DNA of 64,000 nucleotides from Flavisolibacter nicotianae (GTDB lineage: Bacteria; Bacteroidota; Bacteroidia; Chitinophagales; Chitinophagaceae): positions 1-64,000 of the forward strand of contig NZ_RBCI01000004.1 of assembly GCF_003628535.1 (NCBI RefSeq), read 5' to 3'. The position numbers were made by a program, and so were the translations under genes. Within the stretch, counting starts at the first letter, position 1. Each line of letters starts with the position of its first letter. The notes under the pieces were generated by a model. The model saw only the letters and a list, made by a program, of their open reading frames with translations. It ran no database searches and was not told the origin of the DNA. Below are positions 42,293 through 58,873 of the stretch, piece after piece.

Positions 42293-42415
42293 CATTTCTG
42301 CAAACAGGGAACGCATCGCAATGTTTTTCTCACGGTGATGGTCGCTTGCCGCAGGCTTCCAGCGAGCAGGAACGTCCGGGAAAAGAAAGAATGCAACAAA
42401 GTTGAAAAAATAATT

Positions 42416-42432
42416 CCTACTAAACTACTCGG
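42416..42432 (+). promoter_or_regulatory. Imperfect palindrome, likely regulator site for the cys operon
   Basis: CCTACTAAACTACTCGG fits the consensus built from the site at 54368 (CCTACYAAWTTRGTAGG) at 14 of 17 positions. It lies 17 bp upstream of the -7 box. The Rrf2 gene of the same cluster is the obvious candidate to bind it. Confidence 0.55.
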
Positions 42433-42448
42433 ATTAAACTTTTCAGGT

Positions 42449-42456
42449 TACATTTG
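42449..42456 (+). promoter_or_regulatory. cys operon promoter, -7 box
   Basis: TACATTTG fits TAnnTTTG. No good -33 is visible, which fits dependence on an activator or regulator. The riboswitch starts 17 bp after it. Confidence 0.6.
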
Positions 42457-42472
42457 TTCCAGTTCTTCAGTT

Positions 42473-42578
42473 GCTTATCAAGAAAGGTGGAGGGAGATGG
42501 CCCCATGAAACCTTAGCAACCATGCCGGTAACGGCAAAGGTGCTACATCCATTCCTGCGGAAAGCGGGAGAGATAAGT
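42473..42578 (+). ncRNA. SAM-I (S-box) riboswitch
   Basis: It contains the core elements of the S-box: CTTATCAAGA...GGTGGAGGGA, GGCCC-ATGAAACCTTAGCAACC, a variable paired element around CCGGTAACGG with AAGGTGCTA, and closes with AGAGATAAG pairing back to CTTATC. It would bind S-adenosylmethionine and turn off the downstream genes when methionine is plentiful. Confidence 0.92.
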
Positions 42579-42618
42579 CAGATGCCTGAATAATTTGTTT
42601 TAACACAAAATATAGCGG

Positions 42619-42649
42619 AGCACTTCTGATTTATCGGGAGTGCTTTTTA
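42619..42649 (+). terminator. Terminator of the SAM-I riboswitch expression platform
   Basis: AGCACTTC and GGAGTGCT (one G-U pair) with a loop of about 10 nt, followed by TTTTTATTTT. It lies 40 nt after the aptamer, so it is the likely off structure. Confidence 0.75.
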
Positions 42650-42727
42650 TTTTAGCGTAACCCGATATAAGCTTCCCGGTAAATTTTGATAAGTGATTGC
42701 ATTCAATCACGACATAATATAAACGAA

Positions 42728-42835
42728 ATGAAAAAGACAACAACAAACCCGTTCAAGACAAGTGTAAGCAGCGTTGCAAAAACGTTTGCTGCTTGTTGTT
42801 GTTGTCAGCCTTTCGATTGTTGTTGTACGAACTAA
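42728..42835 (+). CDS. Poly-cysteine leader peptide (35 residues)
   Basis: Peptide starting MKKTTTNPFKTSVSS and ending CCCC-QPFD-CCC-TN. Seven of 35 codons are Cys, all TGT, in a run of four and a run of three near the stop. It lies after the riboswitch terminator and 74 nt before cysH. A second, clearly related peptide is at 54407-54517, 12 kb away, upstream of the TonB receptor. The run of cysteine codons just before sulfur-assimilation genes, with a hairpin that can form over the last three Cys codons, suggests a Cys-responsive leader like the polycysteine leader known in mycobacteria. That use here is inference. Confidence 0.8.
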   Translation: MKKTTTNPFKTSVSSVAKTFAACCCCQPFDCCCTN

Positions 42836-42883
42836 GAATTGCAGCCGTACAACACGAAACACTCTCTCGATTGCTTCTATCCA
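42821..42883 (+). promoter_or_regulatory. Leader hairpin and conserved block before cysH
   Basis: TGTTGTACG (42821-42829, over the last Cys codons) pairs perfectly with CGTACAACA (42846-42854). A block starting CCGTACAAC (42845) and containing CACTCT-TCGATTGCTTCT-TCCA is shared with 54527-54564. It could be an attenuator or a site controlling cysH translation. Confidence 0.65.
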
Positions 42884-42909
42884 TTTATTGACCATTTAAC
42901 TTTTGGAAC

Positions 42910-43638
42910 ATGTCTATTGTAACAAAAGACAGTTTTCTGTCTTTGCAGGACAGGGTAGTACAGCTTTCGATCCCCGAGGTCTTAAAGCAACTTTCTGAAG
43001 CGTTTCCCGGCGGGCTGACCTTTTCTACCAGCTTTGGCATGGAAGACCAGGTGATCACCGACCAGATCAGCCAGTCAGGCGTGCCCGTCAACATTTTTAC
43101 GCTGGATACCGGACGCTTATTTCCCGAAACCTACTCAACCTGGAGCCGCACACTGGAGCGCTATTCCCTGCCGATTGATGCCTATTACCCAAATGCAGAA
43201 AAGATCCAGGAATTTGTTCGGCAGTATGGCCCCAATTCGTTTTACGAGTCGGTTGAGCGCAGAAAAGAGTGTTGCCATATACGTAAAGTCGAACCGTTGA
43301 AAAAAGCGCTGGCGGGTAAGTCGGTTTGGATCACAGGCCTTCGGGCCGAGCAGTCTGCCGGTCGCAGCGAAATGCACATCCTGGAATGGGACGACAGCCA
43401 CCAGCTTATAAAATACAATCCCCTTCTGCACTGGACAACAGACGACGTGCGGAATTACATCAACCAGCACAACGTTCCCTACAATTCACTTCACGACAAG
43501 GGCTTTGTCAGTATCGGCTGTGCCCCGTGCACACGGGCTGTCCGCCCTGGCGAAGATTTCCGTGCCGGCCGCTGGTGGTGGGAAGATCAAAGTAAAAAAG
43601 AGTGCGGTTTGCACGTTCATCAAGTAACAACGAATTAG
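42910..43638 (+). CDS. cysH: Phosphoadenylyl/adenylyl-sulfate reductase
   Basis: A 242-residue PAPS/APS reductase that makes sulfite from activated sulfate. The nucleotide-binding loop is FSTSFGMEDQ, with the conserved ETYSTW and RRKECCHIRK. Further on are ITGLRAEQS and GCAPCTR. The CC and CxxC pairs indicate the 4Fe-4S form that uses adenylyl sulfate. First enzyme gene of the sulfur operon; cysD follows 9 nt later. Confidence 0.93.
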   Translation: MSIVTKDSFLSLQDRVVQLSIPEVLKQLSEAFPGGLTFSTSFGMEDQVITDQISQSGVPVNIFTLDTGRLFPETYSTWSRTLERYSLPIDAYYPNAEKIQEFVRQYGPNSFYESVERRKECCHIRKVEPLKKALAGKSVWITGLRAEQSAGRSEMHILEWDDSHQLIKYNPLLHWTTDDVRNYINQHNVPYNSLHDKGFVSIGCAPCTRAVRPGEDFRAGRWWWEDQSKKECGLHVHQVTTN

Positions 43639-43647
43639 CCAGAAAAT

Positions 43648-44553
43648 ATGAACTACCAATTGGATTATTTAGATCAACTGGAATCAGAAGCCATTTACAT
43701 CTTCCGGGAAGTTGCGGGGCAGTTTGAAAAGCCAGCGCTTTTATTCTCGGGTGGGAAAGACAGCATTACGCTGGTGCATCTTGCATTGAAAGCGTTTCGT
43801 CCGGGAAAATTTCCCTTCCCCCTGGTCCACATCGATACGGGTCACAATTTTCCCGAAGCCCTGGAATTTCGTGACAACCTCGCAAAATCGATCGGTGAAA
43901 AACTCATTGTTCGCAAAGTTGAAGACACCATTAAAGCAAAAGGGTTGAAAGAAACTACCGGGAAGTTGGCAAGCCGCAATGCTTTGCAAACATTCACCCT
44001 GCTCGACACCATTGAAGAATTTGGATTCGATGCCTGCATCGGCGGTGCCCGTCGCGACGAAGAAAAAGCAAGAGCAAAAGAACGGGTGTTTTCGATCCGG
44101 GATGAATTCGGCGGTTGGGATCCCAAGCGCCAGCGGCCTGAACTCTGGAATATTTACAACGGCAAGATCAACAAGGGCGAGAACGTTCGGGTATTTCCCA
44201 TTTCCAACTGGACCGAACTGGACGTATGGAATTATATCCGACGTGAAAAGATTGACCTGCCTTCAATTTATTTCTCCCACGAAAGAGAAATCCTAGAATA
44301 CGAAGGGCAACTGATCGCGACGTCCGAATTCATCCGAATCGACGACGGTGACACGATTTCCCGCAAACGGGTACGCTATCGCACGGTTGGAGATATGACC
44401 TGTACGGCCGCTGTTGAAAGCACCGCATCGACCATTGACGATATCATATCAGAAATCACGGCAACACGGATAAGCGAACGCGGTGAAACAAGGATTGATG
44501 ACCGTATTTCTGAAGCGGCAATGGAAGACAGGAAAGTGAACGGATATTTTTAA
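43648..44553 (+). CDS. cysD: Sulfate adenylyltransferase subunit 2
   Basis: A 301-residue PP-loop ATPase. LLFSGGKDSITLVHLA is the PP motif; HIDTGHNFPE, GARRDEEKAR and FPISNWTELDVW are CysD signatures. With CysN it makes adenosine 5'-phosphosulfate. The 95 nt between it and cysN contains only the latter's start region. Confidence 0.95.
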   Translation: MNYQLDYLDQLESEAIYIFREVAGQFEKPALLFSGGKDSITLVHLALKAFRPGKFPFPLVHIDTGHNFPEALEFRDNLAKSIGEKLIVRKVEDTIKAKGLKETTGKLASRNALQTFTLLDTIEEFGFDACIGGARRDEEKARAKERVFSIRDEFGGWDPKRQRPELWNIYNGKINKGENVRVFPISNWTELDVWNYIRREKIDLPSIYFSHEREILEYEGQLIATSEFIRIDDGDTISRKRVRYRTVGDMTCTAAVESTASTIDDIISEITATRISERGETRIDDRISEAAMEDRKVNGYF

Positions 44554-44647
44554 ACTGAAACGCGAAATGGTAAATGTGAAACGACAAGTCATGATGAAAT
44601 AGCAGTCATTGAGGTTTTACGAACACGTTTCACCCAAAATAAAACAA

Positions 44648-45889
44648 ATGGACCTACTAAGATTTATAACAGCCGGCAGCGTTGATGATGGGAAAAGCAC
44701 CCTGATCGGCCGCCTGCTTTACGACAGCAAGAGCATCCTGGTTGACCAGTTGGAAACCTTGAAAAAGCAAAGCAAAAACACGGCGCATTCCGATATCGAC
44801 CTCGCCTTGCTCACCGATGGCTTGCGTGCCGAGCGGGAACAGGGCATTACCATCGATGTAGCCTATAAGTATTTTTCCACGCCAAAGCGGAAGTTCATCA
44901 TCGCCGATGCACCGGGCCATATCCAGTACACCCGCAACATGATTACAGGTGCATCCAATGCCGATTGCATCATTATTCTTGTTGATGCCCGTAACGGTGT
45001 AGTGGAACAGACCCGGCGACATTCCATCATTGCCTCTTTGCTGCGTATCCCGCATGTCATTGTTGCCATCAACAAAATGGATATGGTCGATAACGACCAG
45101 GTCGTTTTCGATGCGATCGTGGAGCAATATGAGGCACTGGCCAGGGATCTGAAGCTAAAGGATGTCTATTACATTCCCATGAGTGCGTTGAAAGGCGACA
45201 ACATCATTTCCCGCTCTTCCGATATTCCGTGGTATAAAGGCGAACCACTGCTTTCTTATCTCGAAAACCTGCCCGTTTCGCATGGCTACACGCATACGCC
45301 ATCGCGTTTCCAGGTGCAATACGTAGTACGGCCACAGTCGGAAGATCTGCACGATTACCGCGGTTATGCTGGAAGGGTGAGCAACGGCACCTACAAGGTC
45401 GGAAACGCGGTGCGCATCCTTCCTTCCGGTCAAACATCTGTCATCAGTGCCATTGAAGTTGGGGGAAAAGAAGTAACAGAAGTATTTGCCGGGCAAAGCG
45501 TCATTCTTCACCTCAAAGACGATATCGACGTCAGTCGTGGCGACTCGATTGTGAAGCTGGGCGAACTGCCAAGACTCGAGCAGGAGTTTGATGCCTTGAT
45601 GTGCTGGATGGATACCAAAGAATTGCAGGAAGGTGCAAGATACCTTTTGCAGCAAGGCAGCCGGCGTGTAAAAGCCATTGTCAAGGAAATAGCTTATAAA
45701 CTCGATGTGAACACACTTGCACAACAGCCTTCGCCGCAGACGGCAGCCCTGAACGATGTCGTGAAAGTGCGGATCAAAACCGCGGAACCAATTGCCTTTG
45801 ATTCGTTCCAAAAACTGTCGGCCGACGGAACTGCAATCCTGGTCGATCAAACAAGTAATATGACGGCAGGTGCACTGCTGTTACAATAA
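44648..45889 (+). CDS. cysN: Sulfate adenylyltransferase subunit 1 (GTPase)
   Basis: A 413-residue translation-factor-like GTPase: GSVDDGKSTLIGRLL (P-loop), REQGITIDVAY, DAPGHIQYTRNM and AINKMDMVD. The last third is the beta-barrel part. It drives APS formation by GTP hydrolysis. The ATG at 44648 gives the usual N-terminus; no APS-kinase (CysC) extension is present, in keeping with an APS-using CysH. Confidence 0.95.
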   Translation: MDLLRFITAGSVDDGKSTLIGRLLYDSKSILVDQLETLKKQSKNTAHSDIDLALLTDGLRAEREQGITIDVAYKYFSTPKRKFIIADAPGHIQYTRNMITGASNADCIIILVDARNGVVEQTRRHSIIASLLRIPHVIVAINKMDMVDNDQVVFDAIVEQYEALARDLKLKDVYYIPMSALKGDNIISRSSDIPWYKGEPLLSYLENLPVSHGYTHTPSRFQVQYVVRPQSEDLHDYRGYAGRVSNGTYKVGNAVRILPSGQTSVISAIEVGGKEVTEVFAGQSVILHLKDDIDVSRGDSIVKLGELPRLEQEFDALMCWMDTKELQEGARYLLQQGSRRVKAIVKEIAYKLDVNTLAQQPSPQTAALNDVVKVRIKTAEPIAFDSFQKLSADGTAILVDQTSNMTAGALLLQ

Positions 45890-45896
45890 AACAAAC

Positions 45897-46727
45897 ATGA
45901 ACGAAGCAGCTTTTTTACAAACACTGGCTGAAAGCCGTATCGGTGTTTCGCAGCAGTTTCCGGACAAACTGGCTGCGGAGCTGTTTATTGACGAAGTCTT
46001 TCATTTTCTTTTTATAAATAACGGCGAAGACGCCGATGTTACAAAAGCGGCTGTTGAATACAAACGGCTCCAAAACAATTTTTCATCCCTGCTGGCCGAA
46101 ACCATCAGTGGCGAAAAAACAATCCGGTTGCAGGCGGATACGTTTTTTGGACAATGGCCTGCGATTTACAAAGCACTGTTGAATGATGCGCAGGCGATCC
46201 TTGAATTTGATCCGGCAGCACAAAACATCGCAGAGGTGATCGTGGCCTACCCGGGCTTTTATGCAACGGTCGTCTACCGTTTGTCGCACCAATTGTGGAA
46301 ACAAGGCGTGCGCCTTTTGGCCCGTTTGTTCAGCGAATATGCACACGGCAAAACCGGCATCGACATCCATCCCGGTGCAAAAATCGGCAACGCCTTTGCC
46401 ATCGATCACGGCACCGGTATTGTAATCGGCGAGACAACTGTCATTGGAAACCGTGTGAAGATTTACCAGGGCGTTACGTTGGGTGCGCTGAACGTAGCAA
46501 AGGAATTCCGTAGCACAAAACGCCACCCGACGATCGAAAACAATGTTGTGATTTACTCGGGTGCAACGATCCTCGGCGGCGATACGGTCGTTGGCGAAGA
46601 CAGCATAATCGGCGGCAATGTTTGGATCACGTCCAGTGTGCCGCCAAACTCCGTGGTGTATCACAAAAGTGAAATCCGGATCAAAGACAGGAACCCCTTT
46701 CCCGAACCCATCAATTTTATTATTTAA
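45897..46727 (+). CDS. cysE: Serine O-acetyltransferase (EpsC/CysE-like)
   Basis: A 276-residue protein. The N-terminal helical region is followed by a left-handed beta-helix: [40 protein letters not shown] and [20 protein letters not shown]. It acetylates serine to O-acetylserine for cysteine synthase, whose gene is 8 nt downstream. ATG at 45897 is used instead of an upstream one inside cysN. Confidence 0.92.
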
Positions 46728-46735
46728 TAGTTAGT

Positions 46736-47653
46736 ATGAAAGCGAATAGCATTTTGGACACGATCGGCAATACTCCACACGTACGGTTAAACAAACTTTT
46801 TCCTTCTGATTATGAAGTTTGGATCAAGCTTGAACGCAACAATCCCGGCGCCAGCATCAAAGACCGGATTGCCCTTGCCATGATTGAAGATGCCGAGAAA
46901 AAAGGCATTCTTACTCCCGAAAGCGTCATCATCGAGCCAACATCCGGCAATACCGGTATCGGGCTGGCTTTGGTGGCAGCCGTAAAAGGTTACAAGCTCA
47001 TTTTGGTCATGCCGGAAAGCATGTCGGTTGAGCGTCGCCGCCTCATGTCAATCTACGGTGCCGAATTTGTTCTGACACCCCGCGAAAAAGGCATGAAAGG
47101 TGCTATTGAAAAAGCCCAGGAACTTGCGGCGGAAACACCCAATGCCTGGATACCGCAGCAATTCGATAATCCTTCCAATACCGAGAGCCATCGCAAAACG
47201 ACGGCCCGCGAGATCATCAATGATTTTAAAGAAAGCGGACTGGATTATGTCATAACCGGTGTGGGTACCGGCGGGCATATTACGGCGATAGCAGAAGTGG
47301 TAAAAGATGCCATTCCGGGATTGAAAGTATTGGCCGTTGAACCGGAACTCTCGCCGGTGCTCAGCGGCGGTGCGCCTTCACCGCATCCGCTACAAGGATT
47401 GGGTGCCGGATTTATTCCCACCATTCTGAACACCGACGTACTCGACGGCGTGATCACAGTCGGTAAAGATGAAGCGTTTCAATTTGCACAACGCATAGCG
47501 AAAGAGGAAGGGATTCTGGTTGGCATTTCAACCGGTGCGGCGCTGGCAGCCGTTGCGAAAAAGCTTCCTGAACTGCCGGCTGGTTCGAAGATCCTGACCT
47601 ACAACTACGACACAGGCGAACGTTATTTATCCATTGAAGGCCTTTTTCAATAA
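46736..47653 (+). CDS. cysM: Cysteine synthase
   Basis: A 305-residue PLP-dependent enzyme that makes cysteine from O-acetylserine and sulfide. PLP-Lys lies in [11 protein letters not shown]; also [19 protein letters not shown] and [10 protein letters not shown]. CysK- and CysM-type enzymes look alike here, so the symbol is a guess between the two. Confidence 0.92.
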
Positions 47654-47659
47654 ACGAAT

Positions 47660-48496
47660 ATGAAGAGTACCATAACTGGTGGCAAAGTGGTTTTGGTTGG
47701 TGCAGGCAGCGGCGACCCGGAGCTCATTACCGTGAAAGGGATGCGCTGGCTGCAAAAGGCTGACGTGATCCTGACCGACAGGTTGGTGAGCCCCGAAATA
47801 ATCCGTTCGTTTGCCCCGGCTGCAGCAAAGGTGATTTATGTTGGGAAACAGTGTCGCAGGGGACATTCCACTCCACAGGCAACAATCAACGAATTGATGG
47901 TATTGTATGCACAGGATGGTAAAACAGTGGTGCGTTTGAAAGGGGGCGATGTGTCCATATTTTCCAACATCCTAGACGAACTGCAAGCCCTCCAGCAAAA
48001 CCACATTTCTTACGAGATTGTGCCGGGTGTGACCGCAGCCCTCGGTGCCGCAGCCTTTGCAGGAATGCCACTGACGGCACGAAATTATGCAACCTCGGTT
48101 CGGTTTTTAACCGCCTACAAATCAGATGTCGTCAGTGAAACGTATTGGAAAGAGCTGGCGCAAACAGATGATACGCTTGTCTTTTACATGTCGTCGGAAA
48201 CACTTCGCGACGTTGTAAAAAAACTCACCGCGAACCAGATCGACGCAAGTAAAAAACTGGCGGTGATAGAGCAGGCAACCACACCGCAACAGAAAGTGTA
48301 CACGTCGTCTTTGTATGCCTATGATGAGGCGCTGGGCGGCAAAAACTTTTTCTCACCCACGCTTGTCATTATCGGGAAAGTGGTGGACTTGCATGAGCAA
48401 TTCCGGTGGGTAAATGAAAAAGCGGAAACCACCGAATATTTCAAATCGGAAGATGTTTCAAACAACGAAAACGAACAGTTGGCTTTAACAGCATAA
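47660..48496 (+). CDS. cobA: Uroporphyrinogen-III C-methyltransferase (SUMT)
   Basis: A 278-residue tetrapyrrole methylase: VVLVGAGSGDPELITVKG, YVGKQCRRGHSTPQ, RLKGGDVSIF, VPGVTAALGAAAFAGMPLT. It adds the two methyl groups that start siroheme, the cofactor of CysI in this operon. The later steps would be done by the fusion protein at 52062. Confidence 0.94.
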   Translation: MKSTITGGKVVLVGAGSGDPELITVKGMRWLQKADVILTDRLVSPEIIRSFAPAAAKVIYVGKQCRRGHSTPQATINELMVLYAQDGKTVVRLKGGDVSIFSNILDELQALQQNHISYEIVPGVTAALGAAAFAGMPLTARNYATSVRFLTAYKSDVVSETYWKELAQTDDTLVFYMSSETLRDVVKKLTANQIDASKKLAVIEQATTPQQKVYTSSLYAYDEALGGKNFFSPTLVIIGKVVDLHEQFRWVNEKAETTEYFKSEDVSNNENEQLALTA

Positions 48497-48505
48497 ATAG
48501 AAAAC

Positions 48506-50206
48506 ATGATCGCACAATCGAAAATCAAACAGGTGCAGGAGATGGTAACGGGTCTCACCCGGGAAGAAATCATTTGGTTGAGTGGCTATTTGTCCGGCCT
48601 GGCCGGTGCAGAAACGGCGTTATTGCCGTCCGAATCAACCGCAACGGCAACACCCGCTGCGGTGCAAAAGATCACCATCGCTTACGGCACGGAAACAGGC
48701 AACGCGAAAAAACTCGCCACGTCGTTTGCTGCCAAGGCAAAGAAGAAGGGCATCCAGTCAAAACTAGTGAGCCTCGACCAGTACAAACTCACTGACCTCC
48801 CAAAGGAAGAATGGTTTTTCACCGTTATCAGCACCCAGGGTGACGGCGAACCACCCGCCACCGCAAAGAAGTTTTACGATTTTGTGCACCAGGACAACAT
48901 CAAACTGTCAAAGCTCAATTATGGCGTGCTGGCTTTGGGCGATACTGCATATCCGCTTTTTTGCAAAGCCGGTGAAGACGTAGACCAGCAGTTGCAAAAA
49001 TTGGGTGGAAACCGCGTAGCACCTCTACAAAAACTCGATACCGATTACGAAGAAGCAGCCGAGCAGTGGATGGTGAGCCTGCTGAATTCGCTGTTGTCGT
49101 CAGCACCGGCTACTACACCGGTAACGGCACCTGTGGCAAAGAAAACCGGCCGTAAAACCTATACCGGTAAGATCCAGGCAAATGTTAACCTGAATGGCCG
49201 TGGCTCAGGCAAACAAACCTTTCACCTCGAAATTGCGGCAGAAGAAGTGGCATTTGAGCCAGGCGACGCAGCGGGTATTACCCCGTTAAACAAACCGGAA
49301 CTGGTTCAACGAATTGCCACGCTGAGCGGCTTTGAAGAAGAAACGGTTGTAACATACAAAGACGAAACCATTGCCCTGGGTCAGCTTTTGCAGAGAAAAG
49401 TTTCCCTGGTCAATCTTCCGGAACGTGTCGTTAAGGCCTATGCGGGCATCGTGAAGCAGGATATACCAGCAACACGCATGGATTTCCTGGACCTGCTTCG
49501 CATTTATCCTGTCAACGGGCAGGAACAGTTTTTGGCGGCGCTGCAAATTCTTGACCCGATTGCGCCGCGGCTGTATTCAATTGCCTCGTCTCCGGAAGCG
49601 CATTCCGGTGAAGTGCACCTGACCGTCGGCATGCATCGCTTTGTCGCAAACGACCAGTTAAAGGATGGACTGGCATCTGCTTTTCTTTCACAATTGAAGG
49701 AAGGGGATGAGGTTGAATTTTACATTCATAAAAATCATTTGTTCAAGCTGCCTGCCGCCGACAAAGATGTTATCATGATCGGCCCCGGAACCGGCATTGC
49801 GCCATTTCGTTCCTTTGTTGCCCATCGTGATGCAACCGGTGCCGATGGCCGCAACTGGCTGTTCTTTGGCGATCAGCATTTCACCACCGATTTCCTCTAC
49901 CAAACTGAGTGGCTCAACTGGATCGAAACCGGCGTGCTCACGAAAATGAACGTTGCATTCAGCCGCGACCAGGACGAAAAATTGTATGTACAGCACAAGC
50001 TGTGGCAGCACCGCGAAGAACTGGTGAAATGGATAGAAAACGGGGCTTACCTCTACATCTGCGGCGCGAAAGAACCCATGAGCAACGACGTGGAAAACAT
50101 GCTGACCCGCATCTTCCGTGAACAAAAAGGGGTGAGTGACGACACTGCAGTTGAACTTCTCAATGCATTAAAAGAAGAAGGCCGTTACCTGAAAGATGTT
50201 TATTAA
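48506..50206 (+). CDS. cysJ: Sulfite reductase (NADPH) flavoprotein subunit
   Basis: A 566-residue diflavin reductase. A flavodoxin domain (ITIAYGTETGNAKKLA) is followed by the FAD-binding region (PRLYSIASSP) and NADPH-binding region (MIGPGTGIAPFRSF, YICGAKEPM). It passes electrons from NADPH to CysI. Slightly shorter than the enterobacterial protein, mainly at the N-terminus. Confidence 0.94.
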   Translation: MIAQSKIKQVQEMVTGLTREEIIWLSGYLSGLAGAETALLPSESTATATPAAVQKITIAYGTETGNAKKLATSFAAKAKKKGIQSKLVSLDQYKLTDLPKEEWFFTVISTQGDGEPPATAKKFYDFVHQDNIKLSKLNYGVLALGDTAYPLFCKAGEDVDQQLQKLGGNRVAPLQKLDTDYEEAAEQWMVSLLNSLLSSAPATTPVTAPVAKKTGRKTYTGKIQANVNLNGRGSGKQTFHLEIAAEEVAFEPGDAAGITPLNKPELVQRIATLSGFEEETVVTYKDETIALGQLLQRKVSLVNLPERVVKAYAGIVKQDIPATRMDFLDLLRIYPVNGQEQFLAALQILDPIAPRLYSIASSPEAHSGEVHLTVGMHRFVANDQLKDGLASAFLSQLKEGDEVEFYIHKNHLFKLPAADKDVIMIGPGTGIAPFRSFVAHRDATGADGRNWLFFGDQHFTTDFLYQTEWLNWIETGVLTKMNVAFSRDQDEKLYVQHKLWQHREELVKWIENGAYLYICGAKEPMSNDVENMLTRIFREQKGVSDDTAVELLNALKEEGRYLKDVY

Positions 50207-50267: not shown

Positions 50268-51938
50268 ATGGCCGACCAAAAAAATTTATCCGTTGTAGAA
50301 AAGATCAAGGTGGCGAGTGATGCCTTGAGAGGTACGCTGAAAGAAAGCTTGCAGGACGAACTGACGGGCGCCGTCCGGGAAATGGATCATGCCCTGGTAA
50401 AATTCCATGGCATGTACGAACAGGACGACAGGGATTTGCGTGAAGAAAGAGCAGCGCAAAAGCTGGACAAGCTTTATTCGTTCATGATTCGCCTGCGGAT
50501 CCCGGGTGGTTTTATTACCCCGGAGCAGTGGATCACAGCACACCACGTTGCCGGCAAGTATACAACGGGTGTGATCAAGATCACCACGCGGCAAACGATC
50601 CAGTTGCATGGAATTTTAAAGCGTCACATTAAACCAACGTTGAAAGATTTCAATATTGTCGGCCTGGATTCAATTGCGGCCTGCGGCGACGTAAACAGGA
50701 ACGTGATTGCCAGCAGTCATCCTTCCATTTCTCCTTTACATGCGCACATTCATGGCTACGCAAAAAAAATCAGCGAAGCGCTTTTACCCAAGACCCGGGC
50801 TTTTTACGAAGTGTGGCTCGATGAAGAAGTGCTGGTTGATAAAAAACTGGAAGAAGATCCGCTTTACCAGGATCGCTATCTACCCAGAAAGTTTAAAGTG
50901 GCTATTGCCATTCCACCCAATAACGACGTGGACGTTTTTGCAAATGACGTAGCGCTGATCGCCATCATTGAAAATGAAAAGCTCCTTGGTTTTAACGTGG
51001 CCATTGGCGGCGGCTTGGGCGCCACGCACGGCAACCCAGCCACTTATCCAAGGCTGGCCACCGTTATTGGATTTGTGCCGGAAGAAAAACTGATCGAGAC
51101 CGTTTACCAGATTGCAACTGTTCAAAGAGACAACGGCAACCGCAGCGACCGCAAGCTTTCCCGGTTAAAATACACGGTCGACAACATGGGCGTTGATGTG
51201 TTCAAGGCTGAACTGGAAAAGCGCCTTGGCTTCCTGCTGGAACCGGCAAAGCCCTACGTCTTCACGGAAAGACGTGATCATTTTGGCTGGGAACAAAGCC
51301 AGGACGGCAAATGGCATTACACCATTTTTGTTGAAAATGGCCGCGTGACCGATGATGAAAAGCTGGCCTTGAAAACGGCACTCCTGAAGATAGCGGAAAC
51401 GGGAAAAGCCAATTTCCGTTTCACCACGAATCAGAACCTGACACTGGGTGATATTGCCAAAAAAGACAGGGCAGCGGTAGAAGCAATCCTGAATGAATTC
51501 AATATTATTGAACATACCGAAAAAGCCGGTGGCATGCGCCGGAATGCCATAGCCTGCGTGGCATTCAATACCTGCCCGCTGGCCCTGGCCGAAGCGCAAC
51601 GCTATCTACCCACGTTGATCTCCAAAATTGAACCGCTGTTAGAAAAATACAGCTTGCAGGACGACGAGATCAGCATTCGGATGACCGGCTGTCCAAACGG
51701 GTGCGGCCGTTCGACACTGGCCGAAATTGGTTTCGTCGGAACCGCATACGGCCGCTACAACCTGCAACTGGGTGGTGACAGGCTGGGAGAGCGGTTGAAT
51801 AAAACTTACAAAGAGAACGTTGATGAGCAAACAATTCTAAACGAACTGGATGGCCTGTTTGCACGTTATAGCGCCAATAGAAATCCGGGTGAAACATTTG
51901 GTGATTTTACCATCCGTGAAAAGCTGGTCTCTGATTAA
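50268..51938 (+). CDS. cysI: Sulfite reductase hemoprotein subunit
   Basis: A 556-residue siroheme enzyme that reduces sulfite to sulfide. It has the two ferredoxin-like substrate domains (IKITTRQTIQLHG) and the cluster/siroheme ligands in AFNTCPLALAEAQRYLP and MTGCPNGCGRSTLAEIG. Works with CysJ; siroheme supply is encoded on both sides. Confidence 0.95.
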   Translation: MADQKNLSVVEKIKVASDALRGTLKESLQDELTGAVREMDHALVKFHGMYEQDDRDLREERAAQKLDKLYSFMIRLRIPGGFITPEQWITAHHVAGKYTTGVIKITTRQTIQLHGILKRHIKPTLKDFNIVGLDSIAACGDVNRNVIASSHPSISPLHAHIHGYAKKISEALLPKTRAFYEVWLDEEVLVDKKLEEDPLYQDRYLPRKFKVAIAIPPNNDVDVFANDVALIAIIENEKLLGFNVAIGGGLGATHGNPATYPRLATVIGFVPEEKLIETVYQIATVQRDNGNRSDRKLSRLKYTVDNMGVDVFKAELEKRLGFLLEPAKPYVFTERRDHFGWEQSQDGKWHYTIFVENGRVTDDEKLALKTALLKIAETGKANFRFTTNQNLTLGDIAKKDRAAVEAILNEFNIIEHTEKAGGMRRNAIACVAFNTCPLALAEAQRYLPTLISKIEPLLEKYSLQDDEISIRMTGCPNGCGRSTLAEIGFVGTAYGRYNLQLGGDRLGERLNKTYKENVDEQTILNELDGLFARYSANRNPGETFGDFTIREKLVSD

Positions 51939-52061
51939 ACAACTGCGGGTAGACGGTGTGGCATTTTGAAGAAAACGCCCATTGAGGCGTTAGAGATCCG
52001 CTGGATAGTCAGATGGCCGAATGGCATCATCTCGTTCGAAAATATAATTGGAAAAGTAAAC

Positions 52062-53570
52062 ATGCTTGTTCAGGAAACAAATAAGTTATTTCCCATCTTC
52101 CTCAAACTGGAACAACTTTCCATTTTGATTGTTGGTGGTGGAAACGTGGGATTGGAGAAGCTGACAGCTGTGCTGAACAACTCGCCACTGACGAAAATAA
52201 AGCTGGTTGCAACCAGCATCAATGAAAGCATTAAGGCGCTGGCGGCCGAATACCCAACGATCGAGCTTTTCGAACGCCCTTTTGAAAGCACCGATGTTGA
52301 CGGTGCTGATATCGTGATCATTGGCATCAACGATAAAACGAAAAGTGCGGAGATCAGCGAGGTTGCCAAAGGCAAAAACAAGTTGGTGAATGTGGCTGAT
52401 ACGCCGGATCTCTGTGATTTTTACCTCAGCTCCGTTGTACAGAAAGGCAATGTAAAAATTGCCATCTCCACCAACGGCAAATCACCTACCGTGGCGAAGC
52501 GGTTGAAGGAAGTGCTGAATGAAGCCATTCCTGCGGAGATCAACAATGTAGCCGATAACCTGAGCATCATCCGCAATAACATCAATGGCGATTTCAGTGA
52601 AAAAGTCAGGCAGTTAAACGACCTGACAAGGGTGCTGGTGTCGAAACAAATGACACTGGAAGAGCAGAACAAACCCGGGCAAAAGCGCTGGCAAAAGATT
52701 GTGAAATACTGTCTTTTTGCCTTTTTTTTTATGATCATCGGGCACACGATTTTGTCCTATGTGCCAGTACAAAGGCTGGTTGACAGCATCAAGACCATTC
52801 CCAATTACATCGACACGAAAATGTTTCTCATGATGCTGCTCTGCGGCTTCCTGGCACAAATGTCGGATGGTTCATTGGGCATGGGTTATGGGACCATTTC
52901 CACAACCTTCCTGCTGGCCGTCGGCGTCAATCCGGCGATTGTGAGCAGCCGAGTCCACGCTGCAAGGGTTTTCTCCAGCGGTGTTTCGGGATACAGTCAT
53001 CACCGATTCGGTAACATCAATAAAAAATTGTTCAAAGCCCTGGTGATACCGGGAATTGTCGGTGCAGTGCTGGGCGCAACGATGGCCTATTTCGGTCAGA
53101 AATATGCAACCTATGTGCGGTTGCCGCTTTCGGTTTACACCATTTACCTGGGCTATTACATCTTGCGAAAAGCATTCAGCAAACCCAGTTACGAAGCAAA
53201 AGTAAAACGGGCCGGGTGGCTGGCGGCCGTTGGCGGATTTATGGATGCCTTTGCCGGCGGCGGCTGGGGAACGCTGGTGACAAGCACCCTGATGTCGAAG
53301 CGCCGAAGTCCGCGATACGTAATTGGTTCTGTTTGCCTGGCTGAATTCTTCGTAGTGTTTATGAGCTCCGTGGTCTTTTTTATCCTGCTGGAAAGCCTGC
53401 CGCTGTGGGATATCGCCGGCTTGATTATCGGCGGACTTATTGCCGCACCCATTGCCGCCCGCCTGGTAGGCAAACTGCCGATCAAAACCATGTTTATCCT
53501 GGTAGGAACACTGGTGATTCTAACCAGTTGCAATACCCTTTGGAAAGCCATCATGAATTTGATCGCCTAA
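52062..53570 (+). CDS. Fusion of precorrin-2 dehydrogenase (siroheme synthase) and TSUP permease
   Basis: A 502-residue protein from ATG at 52062. Residues about 1-190 form a Met8/CysG-N-like NAD-binding domain: LSILIVGGGNVGLEKLTAVL, DIVIIGINDKTKS and NGKSPTVAKRLKEVL. Residues about 215-500 are a TauE/SafE (TSUP) membrane domain with about eight hydrophobic segments (DGSLGMGYGTISTTFLLAVG, SRVHAARVFSSG, AFAGGGWGTLVTSTLM). It would finish siroheme and move sulfite, sulfate or a related anion. The single frame across the boundary shows a real fusion. Confidence 0.9.
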   Translation: MLVQETNKLFPIFLKLEQLSILIVGGGNVGLEKLTAVLNNSPLTKIKLVATSINESIKALAAEYPTIELFERPFESTDVDGADIVIIGINDKTKSAEISEVAKGKNKLVNVADTPDLCDFYLSSVVQKGNVKIAISTNGKSPTVAKRLKEVLNEAIPAEINNVADNLSIIRNNINGDFSEKVRQLNDLTRVLVSKQMTLEEQNKPGQKRWQKIVKYCLFAFFFMIIGHTILSYVPVQRLVDSIKTIPNYIDTKMFLMMLLCGFLAQMSDGSLGMGYGTISTTFLLAVGVNPAIVSSRVHAARVFSSGVSGYSHHRFGNINKKLFKALVIPGIVGAVLGATMAYFGQKYATYVRLPLSVYTIYLGYYILRKAFSKPSYEAKVKRAGWLAAVGGFMDAFAGGGWGTLVTSTLMSKRRSPRYVIGSVCLAEFFVVFMSSVVFFILLESLPLWDIAGLIIGGLIAAPIAARLVGKLPIKTMFILVGTLVILTSCNTLWKAIMNLIA

Positions 53571-53776: not shown

Positions 53777-54211
53777 ATGCTCAGTCAAAAAGCAAAATAT
53801 GCCTTACAGGCGCTGGCTTATTTAGCCGCCAGTTACCAGGACGAAACGCCTGTGCTCATCAGCACCATCGCTCAGGAAAAGCGCATTCCGCTAAAATTTT
53901 TAGAGGCCATCCTGGTCGAGCTGCGCAACCACGATGTTTTGATCAGCACCCGCGGACGGTATGGTGGTTACCGCCTTGCCGAGCCCCCCAAAAAAATAAC
54001 CCTTGCAAGGGTCATCCGCATTGTTGATGGACCGATTGCCTTGCTGAACTGTGTAAGCCTCAATTTTTACACGCCTTGCGAGAACTGCAACGAAGAAACC
54101 TGCTGCATCAACACGGTGATGCAGGAAGCAAGGGACGCCATTTTGAAAGTGCTGGAGAAACGCACCCTGCACGATATCATGGACAGAACAAAAAAACTCT
54201 CCCCGCAATAA
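53777..54211 (+). CDS. Rrf2-family transcriptional regulator
   Basis: A 144-residue protein: KAKYALQALAYLA (first helix), IAQEKRIPLKFLEAILVEL (HTH), STRGRYGGYRLAEPPKKITLA (wing) and then a Cys-rich region CVSLNFYTPCENCNEETCC. Rrf2 proteins include cysteine-sensing CymR and cluster-sensing IscR. The cysteines and position between the two sulfur units make it the likely regulator of both. The palindromes at 42416 and 54368 are candidate sites. Confidence 0.88.
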   Translation: MLSQKAKYALQALAYLAASYQDETPVLISTIAQEKRIPLKFLEAILVELRNHDVLISTRGRYGGYRLAEPPKKITLARVIRIVDGPIALLNCVSLNFYTPCENCNEETCCINTVMQEARDAILKVLEKRTLHDIMDRTKKLSPQ

Positions 54212-54367: not shown

Positions 54368-54384
54368 CCTACCAATTTAGTAGG
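54368..54384 (+). promoter_or_regulatory. Near-perfect 17-bp palindrome before the second leader
   Basis: CCTACCAATTTAGTAGG, one mismatch from a perfect palindrome. A TATATTTA (54360-54367) directly before it resembles a -7 box, so a bound protein would sit at the start of transcription. It matches the site at 42416. Confidence 0.6.
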
Positions 54385-54406: not shown

Positions 54407-54517
54407 ATGAAAAAGTCACTGGTGAAATCAGGAAGGACAATGATTAGCAGCATTGCTGAATCGATTACACCTTGTTGTTGCTGTTGTAGCATTCCTTCCT
54501 GTTGTTGTACCAAATAA
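54407..54517 (+). CDS. Poly-cysteine leader peptide 2 (36 residues)
   Basis: Peptide starting MKKSLVKSGRTMISS and ending CCCCC-SIPS-CCC-TK. Eight Cys codons (seven TGT, one TGC) in the same two-run layout as the peptide at 42728. Its first residues, the SS before the middle and the C-terminal CCC-T are shared with that peptide. It precedes the TonB receptor gene by about 180 nt. Same proposed function; independent evidence that this peptide type is conserved. Confidence 0.78.
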   Translation: MKKSLVKSGRTMISSIAESITPCCCCCSIPSCCCTK

Positions 54518-54564
54518 TTCCCTCTTCCGTACAACGATAACCACTCTTTCGATTGCTTCTGTCC
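54504..54564 (+). promoter_or_regulatory. Leader hairpin and conserved block before the TonB receptor gene
   Basis: GTTGTAC (54504-54510, over the last Cys codon) pairs with GTACAAC (54529-54535). The block 54527-54564 matches 42845-42883 with only a few changes outside the pairing bases. No terminator T tract follows. Confidence 0.62.
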
Positions 54565-54694
54565 AATTCGTCTTTGCAAAATCACCAGATGCCTCTTTTG
54601 ATGCACCGGGTGGAACAAACCCTTGCAAACTGTCAGTCGCAAAACAATTCTTCATTGAAACTGAAACCTCATGTCTGTTCAAAATAAACCAACC

Positions 54695-57646
54695 ATGCTT
54701 CGAACAAAACAACTCTTATTCGTCTTTTTTTCTCTATTTGCTGTTTCATCATTGGCGGCCCAGGATGCCATTGAAATATCCGGGTTTGTAACCGGCCAGG
54801 AAACCAGGGAAGTACTCACCGGCGTCACAGTCAGTATCAAAGGCACCGACACCAAAACACTAACGGCCAATGACGGTTCTTTTAAATTGCGTACAAAGGA
54901 AAAGCTTCCGTTCACTCTTTTGTTTTCGTCGATCGGCTTTGCGCCGCAGGAAGTGGAAGTGGCTACGCTTGGCTCCAAACTGCAGGTTGCCCTTGCCACG
55001 CAAACCGTATTGGGCAATGCGGTGGTGGTAACCGCATCCCGTGTACGGGAAAGCATCCTTCGATCACCGGTAGCCATTGAAAAACTGGATATCAGGGCCA
55101 TCCGCGAAACACCGGCACCCAGCTTTTACGATGCGCTGGAAAATGTAAAAGGCGTGCAAATGACGACTTCCAGCCTGACATTTAAGGTACCCAATACCCG
55201 TGGTTTCAACATCCCCAACAATTTTCGTTTTATGCAACTGGTCGATGGAGTGGACATGCAGGCCGCCACGTTGGGTGTGCCACTGGGTAATGCCATCGGA
55301 CCCACGGAACTCGATATTCAAAGTGTCGAGATCACGCCGGGAGCGGCTTCCGCACTTTACGGCATGAACGCCATCAACGGCATGGCCAACCTTCTTACCA
55401 AAAATCCCTTTGTGACACAGGGACTGAGTGTGTACCAAAAAACGGGTATAAACCATGTAGATGGGAAGGATTATTCTCCCAGTGTGCTGACGGAAACGTC
55501 CATTCGTTACGCTAAAGTAATCAGCGACCGTTTTGCGTTTAAACTGAACCTGGGATATATGCAGGGCACCGACTGGCTCTCCAACACGCAACTTGATCAA
55601 AATACCAACAACCTGAAAAGTGCCAACCCGTCCTTTTCGGAGCTGAATGGACAATACAATGTTGCTTTTGACGGGTGGAACAAATATGGCGACGATGCAC
55701 TTGCCGGCAGTAACGTGGTGTCGATCGGTGGGTTGACCATCAACGGTAAAAACAACCAGACTTTACGTGTAGCCCGTACCGGCTATTGGGAAAGAGACCT
55801 GATCAATCCAAAGGTGGACAACCTGAAATTTGACGGCGCTGTGCACTATCGCCTGAAGCGAGGTGCCGAATTAGCGTATTCTTACCGGGTGGGTAAAATG
55901 GACGGTGTGTTTCAGCGGGGAAACAAGATCCAGCTTGACAACGTCATTGTGCAAAATCACAAGCTGGAACTCAAAGGTGACAACTTTCTTGTTCGCAGCT
56001 ACGTGTCGCTGGAAAATACCGGTGACTCCTACAATGTCAAACCACTTGCCGATAACCTGGACCTGTACAGCGGTGGCGCTACCGATACAAAAACTGCCGG
56101 CAGCTGGGGTACAAAATTTAAAAATGCGCTCAACGCTTACGCGGCCGCCAACGGTGGTACGCTGACATCGGCCAACCTGGCGGCCGCCACGCAGTATGCC
56201 AGGGAGCAGGCCGATGCCAGCCGCGTAAAACCCGGTACTCCCGAATTCGATGCCTTGAAAAACACCATTATCGGCATCAACAATTGGGACATCAGGTCGG
56301 GATCTATTCCGGATGCACCTGAAACAGGTGGTGCGGCACTTGTTCAGAAAAGCCGCCTCTATCACACAGAGGCGCAATGGGATCTTTCGAAAAAAGTGAA
56401 GGTGGCCGACCTCCTTGTCGGTGGCGATGCACGCATTTACGAGATCATACCAGATGGCAACAATTTTGTGGATTTTTCGCGTCCGATTGCAGAACGCAAC
56501 CTCCTTACCAAAGAAGGGACGTATGGTAACAATGTTTATTATAAAAAGTACGGGGCCTTTGCGCAATTGACGAAAACATTTTTCGATGAAAAGCTCAAGC
56601 TCTTTGGTTCATTACGCTTCGATTACAACCCCGAGTTTGATCCAAAATTCACGCCCCGCCTGGCAGCCGTATATACGGTTGCCAAGAAGCACAATTTTCG
56701 CTTCACCTATCAGCAGGGCTACCGCTTTCCTTCGCTTTTTGAAGCGCTTTCCTATGTCAACAACGGTCGGGTAAAAAGAGTGGGAAGTCTTTCCTACATC
56801 AACGAAGGCTTGGGCTACCTGGAAAACAGTTACACACAGGCATCGGTTGTCAACTTCAATGCGACAGTGAGTGCGGCAGGAAATTCCGACAGTGCAGGCC
56901 TGGCAAACCGGAACCTGCTCACAGTTGCCAACCTGCCAAAAGCAAGACCGGAAGGCATTCGTTCTTTTGAAATCGGCTACAAAGCCGTTCTCATTGACAA
57001 CAAATTGCTGGTGGATATCGACGCGTACACCAACCGATATGACGGATTTTTGGGACAAGTTCAGGTATATGTTCCCAAAGGGGAGAAAGTTGGTTCTGAT
57101 GCAGCCGTCCTGGCCATGATCGACCGTAACCGGGACGCTGCATCTGCAACAGCAACGACAGCAGCAAGCAAAGGGCAAGACCGGTACAGGGTTTATACCA
57201 ATGCGAAAAACACGTATACCAATTTTGGATCGGCGCTGGGTATAACATACAACGTCTACAAGAAATTCAGTCTTTCCGGTAATGTGAATTTCAACCGAAT
57301 GAAGGCCAACAATACCAATGATGTATTTGTGACAGGTTTCAACACACCGGAGTGGGCCACTAACCTTTCTTTTGGCAACCGCGAGGTTGTGAAGAACGTT
57401 GGTTTTAACGTCGTGTGGCGCTGGCAGGATGCATTCCTGTGGGAAAGCCCACTGGTTACCGGTGGCGTAGACGCTTACAGCACACTGGACGCACAGGTCA
57501 ATGTGCGAGTGCCGCAATTAAAGACAACGGTTAAAGTTGGAGGTGCCAACTTGCTCAATCACCACTACATCCAGTACGCCGGTGGTCCTACGATCGGTGG
57601 TCTGTATTACGTCGCCGTAACCTTGGACGGTTTACTAAGTAAATAA
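54695..57646 (+). CDS. TonB-dependent receptor, SusC-like
   Basis: About 983 residues. A signal peptide (MLRTKQLLFVFFSLFAVSSL) is followed by a carboxypeptidase-like regulatory repeat (ISGFVTGQETREVLTGVTVS), a plug domain and a large beta-barrel. It ends with a typical aromatic strand region. Substrate unknown; its place between the Rrf2/leader region and a ChrA-type transporter suggests a sulfur compound or anion. ATG at 54695 chosen; the one at 54671 adds 8 residues. Confidence 0.88.
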   Translation: MLRTKQLLFVFFSLFAVSSLAAQDAIEISGFVTGQETREVLTGVTVSIKGTDTKTLTANDGSFKLRTKEKLPFTLLFSSIGFAPQEVEVATLGSKLQVALATQTVLGNAVVVTASRVRESILRSPVAIEKLDIRAIRETPAPSFYDALENVKGVQMTTSSLTFKVPNTRGFNIPNNFRFMQLVDGVDMQAATLGVPLGNAIGPTELDIQSVEITPGAASALYGMNAINGMANLLTKNPFVTQGLSVYQKTGINHVDGKDYSPSVLTETSIRYAKVISDRFAFKLNLGYMQGTDWLSNTQLDQNTNNLKSANPSFSELNGQYNVAFDGWNKYGDDALAGSNVVSIGGLTINGKNNQTLRVARTGYWERDLINPKVDNLKFDGAVHYRLKRGAELAYSYRVGKMDGVFQRGNKIQLDNVIVQNHKLELKGDNFLVRSYVSLENTGDSYNVKPLADNLDLYSGGATDTKTAGSWGTKFKNALNAYAAANGGTLTSANLAAATQYAREQADASRVKPGTPEFDALKNTIIGINNWDIRSGSIPDAPETGGAALVQKSRLYHTEAQWDLSKKVKVADLLVGGDARIYEIIPDGNNFVDFSRPIAERNLLTKEGTYGNNVYYKKYGAFAQLTKTFFDEKLKLFGSLRFDYNPEFDPKFTPRLAAVYTVAKKHNFRFTYQQGYRFPSLFEALSYVNNGRVKRVGSLSYINEGLGYLENSYTQASVVNFNATVSAAGNSDSAGLANRNLLTVANLPKARPEGIRSFEIGYKAVLIDNKLLVDIDAYTNRYDGFLGQVQVYVPKGEKVGSDAAVLAMIDRNRDAASATATTAASKGQDRYRVYTNAKNTYTNFGSALGITYNVYKKFSLSGNVNFNRMKANNTNDVFVTGFNTPEWATNLSFGNREVVKNVGFNVVWRWQDAFLWESPLVTGGVDAYSTLDAQVNVRVPQLKTTVKVGGANLLNHHYIQYAGGPTIGGLYYVAVTLDGLLSK

Positions 57647-57703: not shown

Positions 57704-58873
57704 ATGACAACGTTCAACAAATCATTACAGGCGACCGCTGAAGAAGCAACTTATACCCTCAAAGACCTGGTCTGCTATTTTCTAAAACTGGGTAGTCTTG
57801 GCTTTGGTGGTCCGGTTGCGTTAGTTGGCCGAATGCACAAAGACCTGGTGGAAGAAAAAGAATGGATAGCAGAGGAAGAGTATAGGCAGGGATTGGCCCT
57901 TGCACAACTGGCTCCGGGCCCTTTGGCTGCTCAACTGGCCATTTACCTGGGCTATGTTCATTACAGAATCATTGGCGCCACGGCAGCAGGTATCGCCTTT
58001 GTCCTGCCATCATTTTTGATGGTTATTGCGTTGGGGTTTGCCTACGTTAGTTTTGGCGGTCTGTCTTGGATGCAGGCAGTGTTTTACGGTATTGGCGCCG
58101 CCGTTATCGGCATTATTTCGGTTGGCAGTTACAAACTCATCCGAAAAAGCGTTGGAAAAGATTGGCTGTTATGGACAATTTTTGCCGTTCTGGCCGTATT
58201 CACATTTCTGTTTGAGAAGGAAAGTATTTCCCTTATTCTGATTGGTAGTGTCATTTATTGTTTCGTCAGAACGAAACCAACATTTCTCTTTGCAGACGGG
58301 TTTATTTTGCTTCCCTTTTTTTTGCAAGCTGGCTTCTATCACTTAAGCCATCCACTCCAGAAGCTGTTTTGGTTTTTTTTAAAAGCGGGTGCATTTGTAT
58401 TTGGAAGTGGCCTGGCGATCGTTCCTTTTTTATACGGTGGTGTCGTGAAAGAGTATCACTGGCTCAGCGAACAAGAGTTTTTGGATGCTGTTGCAGTAGC
58501 AATGATCACACCAGGACCGGTCGTTATCACGGTAGGGTTTATCGGCTATCTGATTGCCGGTTTTCCCGGCGCAAGTGTGGCGGCCCTGGCAACCTTTCTT
58601 CCATGCTATTTGTTCACGATTTTACCGGCACCTTATTTTAAACGACACGGGAATCATCCAGCAGTAAAAGCCCTGGTTGAAGGCATTACAGCTGGCGCTG
58701 TTGGGGCCATTGCCGGTGCAGTTCTTGTTCTGGCGAAACGACAATTTACCGACCTGATTTCACCGGCTATTGCTTTGATCACCATCTTTGCATTGCTTTA
58801 CTTTAAAAAATTGCAGGAACCTTTTATTATCCTCGTTGCCGCGGCACTGGGATTATTGATCAAACGGTTTTAG
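57704..58873 (+). CDS. chrA: ChrA/CHR-family anion transporter
   Basis: A 389-residue membrane protein with two homologous halves: FLKLGSLGFGGPVALVGRMH with QLAPGPLAAQLAIYLGY, and FLKAGAFVFGSGLAIVPFL with MITPGPVVITVGFIGY. This is the long CHR family (chromate efflux; sulfate as the natural analogue). In a sulfur cluster it may transport sulfate or protect against chromate taken up with it. Follows the receptor on the same strand, after a 57-nt gap. Confidence 0.92.
   Translation: MTTFNKSLQATAEEATYTLKDLVCYFLKLGSLGFGGPVALVGRMHKDLVEEKEWIAEEEYRQGLALAQLAPGPLAAQLAIYLGYVHYRIIGATAAGIAFVLPSFLMVIALGFAYVSFGGLSWMQAVFYGIGAAVIGIISVGSYKLIRKSVGKDWLLWTIFAVLAVFTFLFEKESISLILIGSVIYCFVRTKPTFLFADGFILLPFFLQAGFYHLSHPLQKLFWFFLKAGAFVFGSGLAIVPFLYGGVVKEYHWLSEQEFLDAVAVAMITPGPVVITVGFIGYLIAGFPGASVAALATFLPCYLFTILPAPYFKRHGNHPAVKALVEGITAGAVGAIAGAVLVLAKRQFTDLISPAIALITIFALLYFKKLQEPFIILVAAALGLLIKRF

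Follow-up and report, generated by a model that had tools for sequence, protein, structure and literature searches.

The genes for cysteine synthesis in Flavisolibacter nicotianae are preceded by a short open reading frame (ORF) with runs of cysteine codons, and the question that this locus raises is whether the ORF is a sensor of cysteine supply and, if it is, by which route its translation could control the genes that follow. The DNA analysed here (the window) is a whole stretch of 64,000 nucleotides from contig NZ_RBCI01000004.1, and all features located in it below are on the plus strand.

The cysH leader, its operon and a second leader in the window

The ORF, at positions 42728–42835, encodes the polycysteine peptide MKKTTTNPFKTSVSSVAKTFAACCCCQPFDCCCTN, and comparable ORFs occur in relatives. 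Its coordinates, its 35 codons and the 74-nt gap to the ATG of cysH at 42910, as given in a preliminary description of the locus, all proved correct on re-reading. Two runs of cysteine codons, of 4 TGT (42794–42805) and 3 TGT (42818–42826), are indeed placed near the end of the ORF; the stop codon had been said to follow the last run directly, which is not the case, since ACG AAC (Thr, Asn) intervene before TAA, and the C-terminal end of the peptide is ...CCCCQPFDCCCTN. In 2000 dinucleotide shuffles of the region 42656–42909, an ATG ORF of 6–60 amino acids that combines CCCC with 7 or more Cys never appeared, and one that combines CCC with 4 or more Cys appeared in 6. A scan of the whole 64-kb window for ATG ORFs of 6–60 amino acids with at least 4 Cys and CCC returned only 42728–42835 and a second ORF, 54407–54517, on the plus strand and none on the minus strand. 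A run of codons for the end product, within a short ORF directly 5′ of the pathway operon, is the arrangement of an amino-acid-sensing leader, and it is the arrangement found here.

The operon leads from sulfate to cysteine. It consists of cysH, encoding (phospho)adenylyl-sulfate reductase (42910–43638), cysD (43648–44553), a gene for a cysN-type GTPase (44609–45889, assigned with Pfam and by its position after cysD), a cysE-type serine acetyltransferase gene (45897–46727), cysK (46736–47653), a gene for uroporphyrinogen-III C-methyltransferase, for sirohaem (47660–48496), a cysJ-type flavoprotein gene (48506–50206, Pfam), cysI, encoding the sulfite reductase haemoprotein (50268–51938), and a gene for a sirohaem-synthase NAD domain fused to a TauE/SafE exporter (51996–53570, Pfam). 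The cysH, cysD, cysK, methyltransferase and cysI assignments come from profile matches; the acetyltransferase scored 174 bits with the cysE model (cut-off 211) and exceeded the cut-off of the EpsC serine acetyltransferase model. By CysH, the nearest named genomes among the matches listed are those of Flavisolibacter longurius (80–81%), and no relative of the window cysH was found in viral contigs. The genome contains a rho gene (625 bits against a cut-off of 509).

Three features are absent from the preliminary description, namely a SAM-I riboswitch, the second leader and the lack of an intrinsic terminator 3′ of the cysH leader. The SAM-I (S-box) aptamer is located at 42472–42579 (Rfam RF00162, 79.8 bits, well above the gathering score of 44.4) and is accompanied by an expression platform, in which the antiterminator arms 42572–42584 and 42623–42635 (feature 42572–42635; 11 pairs, duplex of −12.9 kcal/mol) compete with an intrinsic terminator (42617–42655) made of a stem-loop at 42617–42646 (13 pairs, −17.0 kcal/mol) and a U tract. 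This SAM-controlled terminator is located 5′ of the leader, which is therefore placed behind it. Farther upstream, TACATTTG at 42449–42456 is the sole match within 42301–42930 to TANNTTTG, the −7 box of Bacteroidota promoters. Among 16 other loci scanned, a SAM-I match lies on the same strand and 5′ of the leader in 7 (L002–L006, L241 and L242) and on the opposite strand in L008, and the remaining 8 gave no match.

The second polycysteine leader, MKKSLVKSGRTMISSIAESITPCCCCCSIPSCCCTK (54407–54517, from the ORF scan), has its TGT runs at 54473–54508 and is about 11.7 kb from the first and 153 nt before a gene for a TonB-dependent receptor (54671–57646, Pfam), which is followed by one for a ChrA-type (chromate) transporter (57704–58873, profile matches). 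Upstream of it there is a gene for an Rrf2-family regulator (53777–54211; best subfamily match CymR with 82 bits, far below the cut-off of 195) and, next to that gene and 5′ of the leader, the palindrome CCTACCAATTTAGTAGG (54368–54384), a possible operator. Pattern search and alignment revealed that both leaders of the window are followed by the conserved element CCGTACAAC...CTCTCGATTGCTTCTATCC, present at 42845–42882 after the cysH leader and, as a copy, at 54527–54564 after the second one. In 394 family genomes CTYTCGATTGCTTCTRTCC was found without mismatch in four places, i.e. after both window leaders and after the cysH leaders of genomes G006 and G014; the reversed pattern had no match in these genomes, and neither of two places with one mismatch (L526 and L528) is preceded by a leader.

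Recurrence of polycysteine leaders before cysH and other genes

Recurrence was assessed in the DNA 5′ of cysH from 169 whole-genome loci, 162 from the window's family and 7 from other families in the order. These are the best listed by similarity to the window CysH, so that distant cysH genes are under-sampled; a CysH match was present in 248 of 394 family genomes and, in another search, in 35 of 58. A strict test (an ATG ORF of 8–45 codons with at least 4 Cys and CCC, at most 260 nt from cysH) was positive in 76 of the 169 loci, the window included, in none of the 169 reverse complements, and in a mean of 0.16 loci (maximum 2) over 100 shuffles. With the same test the next-best amino acid was Leu, with 13 loci. 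The conservation near cysH in relatives, on which the preliminary reading depended, is thus borne out. A loose test was passed by 88 loci, and 81 lacked even a loose leader. Further comparisons used a set of 78 loci (at least 4 Cys with CC) from 32 genera of the window's family, from which L165 had been removed by hand and nine loose matches with 3 Cys left out, and in which the leaders of L042 and L192 were begun at an internal ATG.

In the window's genus, among the 12 genomes whose cysH upstream region was read, 6 have the leader (G000, G003, G006, G007, G013 and G014) and 6 do not (G001, G004, G005, G008, G012 and G015). A gene ends within 150 nt 5′ of cysH in 3 of the 78 leader loci as against 32 of the 81 loci without a loose leader; the other 49 of these 81 have neither a leader nor a nearby gene end. 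Among 80 named loci, two (Flavisolibacter longurius) carry the leader; in the other 78, mostly from Pedobacter and Mucilaginibacter and read up to 3 kb upstream, only L102 has a Cys-run ORF, which is located 789 nt before cysH and was excluded from the count.

Leader peptides of different genera, such as MFRSHTIHIMYISCCNKYCCCC, MLHTIAMQYNTISYCYNYCCCC, MKFFSSIMYMCTPCNCMCCCC and MTYQTIYCCCCCFC, are alike in their Cys runs and otherwise widely divergent. The runs are concentrated at the end of the ORF, as the last codon before the stop encodes Cys in 53 of 79 leaders, and a Cys codon is found within 3 codons of the stop in 77 of 79. Both cysteine codons are used (TGT:TGC of 315:132 in 79 leaders), and synonymous differences between them are present inside groups of relatives. 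Cys sites are clearly better conserved than other sites in the window's relatives (identity in 13/18 versus 25/51) and in genus g3 (39/45 versus 16/81). This is not so in g93 (109/131 versus 267/310) and g107 (46/58 versus 119/152), in which the whole peptide is alike; the corresponding values for g103 are 7/7 and 12/15.

The promoter-like sequence recurs as well. TANNTTTG is present at most 80 nt 5′ of the leader ATG in 65 of the 78 loci (median distance of 26 nt), compared with 9 of 78 in a control window, and TAGACT, half of a palindrome, occurs within 40 nt upstream in 31 of the 78, compared with 0 in a control window. The palindrome itself, ending GTAG(ACT), is a recurring feature between TANNTTTG and the leader ATG in this set and is possibly the operator of an Rrf2/CymR-type regulator.

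Leaders of this kind are not limited to cysH. In a hand-picked survey of 30 genomes, 27 of which are in the 78-locus set, the strict test detected a leader 5′ of cysS in 7 (G094, G286, G202, G137, G068, G003 and G013; loci L463, L465, L466, L468, L472, L479 and L482), with 0 in reverse complements and 0.02 in shuffles; the window's own cysS (L475) is not preceded by a polycysteine ORF. In G094 and G104, which belong to two genera, a leader is located 5′ of susC-susD followed by one or two sulfatase genes (L443 and L444), and G094 has another before a further susC-type gene (L450), so that this genome carries one polycysteine leader before cysH, one before cysS and two before susC. A search with the pattern TGYTGYTGYTGYTRA was swamped by repeats (matches in 115 of 117 family genomes): two of 25 of its places (L368–L392) are leaders before susC, and, among 18 further places (L445–L462), L453 is located before cysS and L450 before susC. 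Within 30 susC homologues, L493, from which the query came, was the one locus with a polycysteine leader; ORFs present in three others contain no Cys run, and this number was also obtained in the reverse-strand control (3 of 30). The susC leaders are therefore not conserved in orthologues, since the 29 other homologues are without one. The recurrence before cysH in 32 genera, the content of the operon and the similar ORFs before cysS together uphold the preliminary reading of the ORF as a leader peptide.

Complete attenuators of the classical type were found elsewhere in the class. Within the window's own family, genus g7 has 5 loci out of 6 (L025, L430, L431, L436 and L437) that combine a Cys leader with an antiterminator and an intrinsic terminator, in a single unit 120 nt before a cysH of distant type. 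In one genus of family f72, 6 of 30 loci (L398–L402 and L409) have two units in tandem, 400 nt before cysH, each with a Met/Cys-rich leader, an antiterminator and an intrinsic terminator. Among 83 loci sampled beyond the main set or at some distance from it (one of which, L319, was read for 89 bases only), seven-Cys runs are present in 4 (L316, L325, L330 and L338) and L311 is classical; leaders ending in seven Cys belong to families f24, f18 and f22. The occurrence of complete classical attenuators in g7 and f72 supports a sensing role for the Cys-run ORFs that precede cysH in this phylum.

The segment after the leader stop and possible modes of control

From these sequence comparisons, the cysH leader very probably senses cysteine supply, and what has to be explained is the output. 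No intrinsic terminator was found 3′ of the window leader, the only one on the plus strand within 42300–43100 being that of the S-box. A trp-type attenuator was considered for the window and rejected, as a terminator with a competing antiterminator between leader and first gene was not found. Of the preliminary proposal of an attenuation leader, the sensing of aminoacyl-tRNA is thus supported and the trp anatomy, with its terminator/antiterminator pair, is absent. In the spacers of the 78 loci terminators are in no excess (6 versus 5.3 in shuffles), and spacer structure does not exceed that of shuffles either (mean MFE z of +0.35, 77 loci).

What does distinguish the segment is its composition. 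The first 50 nt after the stop (42836–42885) contain 15 C and 7 G and form, judging by this composition and by the family profile, a candidate Rho-loading (rut) region. In the 78 loci, C exceeds G within the first 50 nt 3′ of the stop in 77, equals it in 1 and is below it in 0, as compared with 34 loci of C>G, 39 of C<G and 4 equal in a control window; the sole equal locus, L025, is one that carries a classical terminator and antiterminator in its leader. Calculated per 10-nt bin, the C/G ratio is 2.1–2.4 over the first 40 nt post-stop and falls to about 1.1 by 50–60 nt (74 loci). With cysS leaders the ratio is only 1.27 (7 loci), and other families give 1.22 (4 loci), about the value of 1.24 in the classical attenuators that served as control (11 loci); a bias this weak means that a Rho output cannot be general. 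By composition only, the RNA from the leader stop onwards is of the tna type (unstructured, rich in C and poor in G), and base composition is no proof of Rho loading.

A moderately probable account of the locus is that the ORF, sensing cysteinyl-tRNA, acts as the second gate of a two-input 5′ leader with Rho-dependent output; granted the sensing, the Rho step itself may be called rather probable. In the order of events that we infer, transcription would start near 42460, and the first element met would be the SAM-I riboswitch, at which transcripts would terminate when SAM is plentiful. Those that escape would reach the polycysteine leader. With charged Cys-tRNA, the ribosome would complete the leader and depart, so that the C-rich, G-poor RNA from the stop onwards would be open to Rho, which would halt transcription ahead of cysH or soon after its start. 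Under cysteine shortage, the ribosome would stall on the Cys codons near the stop and cover the start of the segment, and transcription would run on into cysHDNEK, cobA and cysJI. The second leader (54407–54517) would subject the TonB receptor and the transporter to this signal as well, with no SAM gate involved. Cys codons at the end of the leader, followed by a C-rich segment, are the layout expected if a held ribosome masks a Rho-loading site at the stop. The account as a whole has to reckon with the 81 loci that lack even a loose leader, with the 6 genomes of the window's genus that have none, with a window cysS that is likewise without one, and with the Cys sites of g93 and g107, which are no better conserved than the rest. 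Rho in particular has against it the f24 loci L316 and L325, in which the Cys codons may pair with the cysH start instead; the short reach of a stalled ribosome, which shields about a dozen nt on its downstream side out of a C-rich segment of about 45 nt; the position of the last Cys codon of the window, two codons from the stop; and the cross-stop hairpin found in close relatives of the window, which Rho leaves unexplained.

This hairpin (42822–42853), seen in a fold (−11.3 kcal/mol) and in the alignment, pairs GTTGTACG at 42822–42829 with CGTACAAC at 42846–42853, and locus L004 has paired changes in it (GTTGTAAG/CTTGCAAC, manual reading). It bears on translational attenuation, in which the cysH start would be occluded through pairing of the Cys codons or the stop-codon hairpin with RNA farther downstream, until stalling frees it. 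This mechanism, which we regard as rather unlikely, is favoured by the paired changes in the window's relatives, by a Cys region that pairs with mid-spacer sequence better than shuffles do (z of −3.8, 46 loci) and by two f24 loci, L316 and L325, in which complementarity between the Cys codons and the cysH start (CAGCAACA, CAGCACA) is accompanied by matching changes (two sequences, manual reading). However, in the family set the Cys region pairs with the cysH start (−9.06) better than shuffles do (−8.59) at a z of only −2.4, and less well than with the starts of leader-less loci (−9.64); a separate test gave −10.15 against −9.67 with swapped partners, and several pairings were tried, so that small z values carry little weight. 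Sequestration of the cysH start as a general mechanism is accordingly rejected or left weak. The cross-stop pairs, too, are not significant across the family (7.85 versus 7.05, sd 0.45), and the hairpin was discarded as a family-wide element, with at least 6 pairs in 38 of 66 loci compared with 35.3 in shuffles. A further candidate, likewise rejected or left weak, was that the stop region pairs with sequence preceding the leader ATG (−8.14 versus −7.50 with swapped partners, sd 0.25); this pairing is strong only inside some genera such as g107 and g93.

Returning to the Rho-dependent reading, three further explanations compete with it. That an intrinsic terminator between the window leader and cysH executes classical attenuation is very unlikely: the complete units in g7 and the f72 genus show that related genomes use such a device, but, besides the missing terminator and the lack of excess over shuffles reported above, in the classical loci several codons or more separate the Cys runs from the stop, and the window type carries its runs at the end. 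It is likewise most improbable that the product is a functional cysteine-rich peptide (metal-binding, a thiol buffer or modified), since across genera little is common beyond the Cys runs; a weak match of the L003 peptide to a thiazole-modified bacteriocin family (E of 0.0057, 16.4 bits) is far below the cut-off of 33, the other 7 peptides scanned against NCBIfam, that of the window included, had no match, and a Pfam search of 13 neighbouring genes revealed no enzyme that would modify a thiazole/oxazole precursor. Finally, a chance TGT repeat, with the riboswitch alone regulating the operon, can practically be dismissed, for although TGY repeats are common (127 matches of TGYTGYTGYTGY in the genome versus 76 of the reversed pattern, and the near-ubiquity of TGYTGYTGYTGYTRA in the family), ORFs in frame from ATG to stop recur before cysH far above both controls, and the second window leader carries the same downstream element.

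A tentative cysteine-starvation network and its relation to known systems

Taken more broadly, the leaders may form a family-wide network of cysteine starvation, a proposal that we make tentatively and with some doubt. Its members would be independent polycysteine leaders, each switching its target on when a ribosome stalls at the leader end and otherwise leaving the RNA to Rho; for the main operon in the window's genus, leader and SAM-I riboswitch together would act as an AND gate. The targets would be sulfate assimilation, cysteinyl-tRNA synthetase, the TonB receptor with the ChrA-type transporter, and the susCD-sulfatase loci, which would release sulfate from sulfated compounds.

Within the searchable literature, little has been written on how Bacteroidota control sulfur assimilation. 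In a flavobacterium, clues of leader-peptide attenuation 5′ of amino-acid operons have been presented, in a text that, in its accessible part, does not name cysteine (PMC9723704). The preliminary remark that polycysteine leaders are not known to be described in this phylum agrees with searches of open-access papers (subscription papers being outside the scope), in which none on cysteine leaders there came up. If the proposed reading is true, ribosomes on tiny, fast-evolving ORFs, which standard annotation tends to skip, read cysteine supply directly in a phylum far from mycobacteria, where such sensing was worked out. The family would then offer dozens of independent versions, including the contrast between leaders with intrinsic terminators and those with C-rich segments, and a metabolite riboswitch in series with a codon sensor, which is testable. 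The presence of a leader would also be a functional hint for the genes of the TonB receptor, the ChrA-type transporter and the susCD-sulfatase loci.

Polycysteine short ORFs of mycobacteria were reportedly treated by Canestrari et al. in 2020. They are leaderless, i.e. the transcript starts with the ORF itself, and the ribosome-binding site of the downstream gene is sequestered. In the portions of the literature available, Cys-run short ORFs before cysteine genes at several unlinked loci, with proposed ribosome stalling, are reported for mycobacteria (PMC9094748, PMC13236596), and the term translation attenuation is applied to them (PMC13236596). The Cys-run short ORF before cysteine genes and the multiple unlinked loci per genome are shared with the window and with G094. 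The window's family, however, belongs to another phylum with no sequence relation seen, its leaders are, from the predicted starts, not leaderless (TANNTTTG at the median distance before the ATG given above, or a riboswitch upstream), and in the window there are a C-rich segment after the stop and a SAM-I riboswitch in addition.

A parallel to the proposed output is tnaC of the Escherichia coli tna operon, in which a ribosome that remains at the leader end shields a site for Rho opening at the stop codon. The signal for tnaC is free tryptophan, perceived by way of the nascent peptide, whereas the likely signal here is codon supply; the proposed masking of a post-stop Rho site is alike. For Actinobacteria, candidate cys leaders with Cys runs near the stop and no conserved terminator were described by Seliverstov et al. 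in 2005, who, in the part of the text consulted, suggested Rho by analogy with tna and graded this a rather weak prediction (PMC1262725). As compared with that part of their account, the present leaders are from Bacteroidota, show the C>G bias after the stop in nearly every locus of the set and precede further target genes. A link between a short upstream ORF and Rho termination is also known from E. coli toiL, which, according to the available text, senses ribosome-targeting antibiotics and, differing in this from the mechanism proposed here, acts by hiding a ribosome-binding site (PMC12121999). Finally, the riboswitch of the window has the aptamer, antiterminator and terminator of the SAM-I (S-box) class RF00162, and differs from it in being placed in series with a leader that is likely to sense codon supply.
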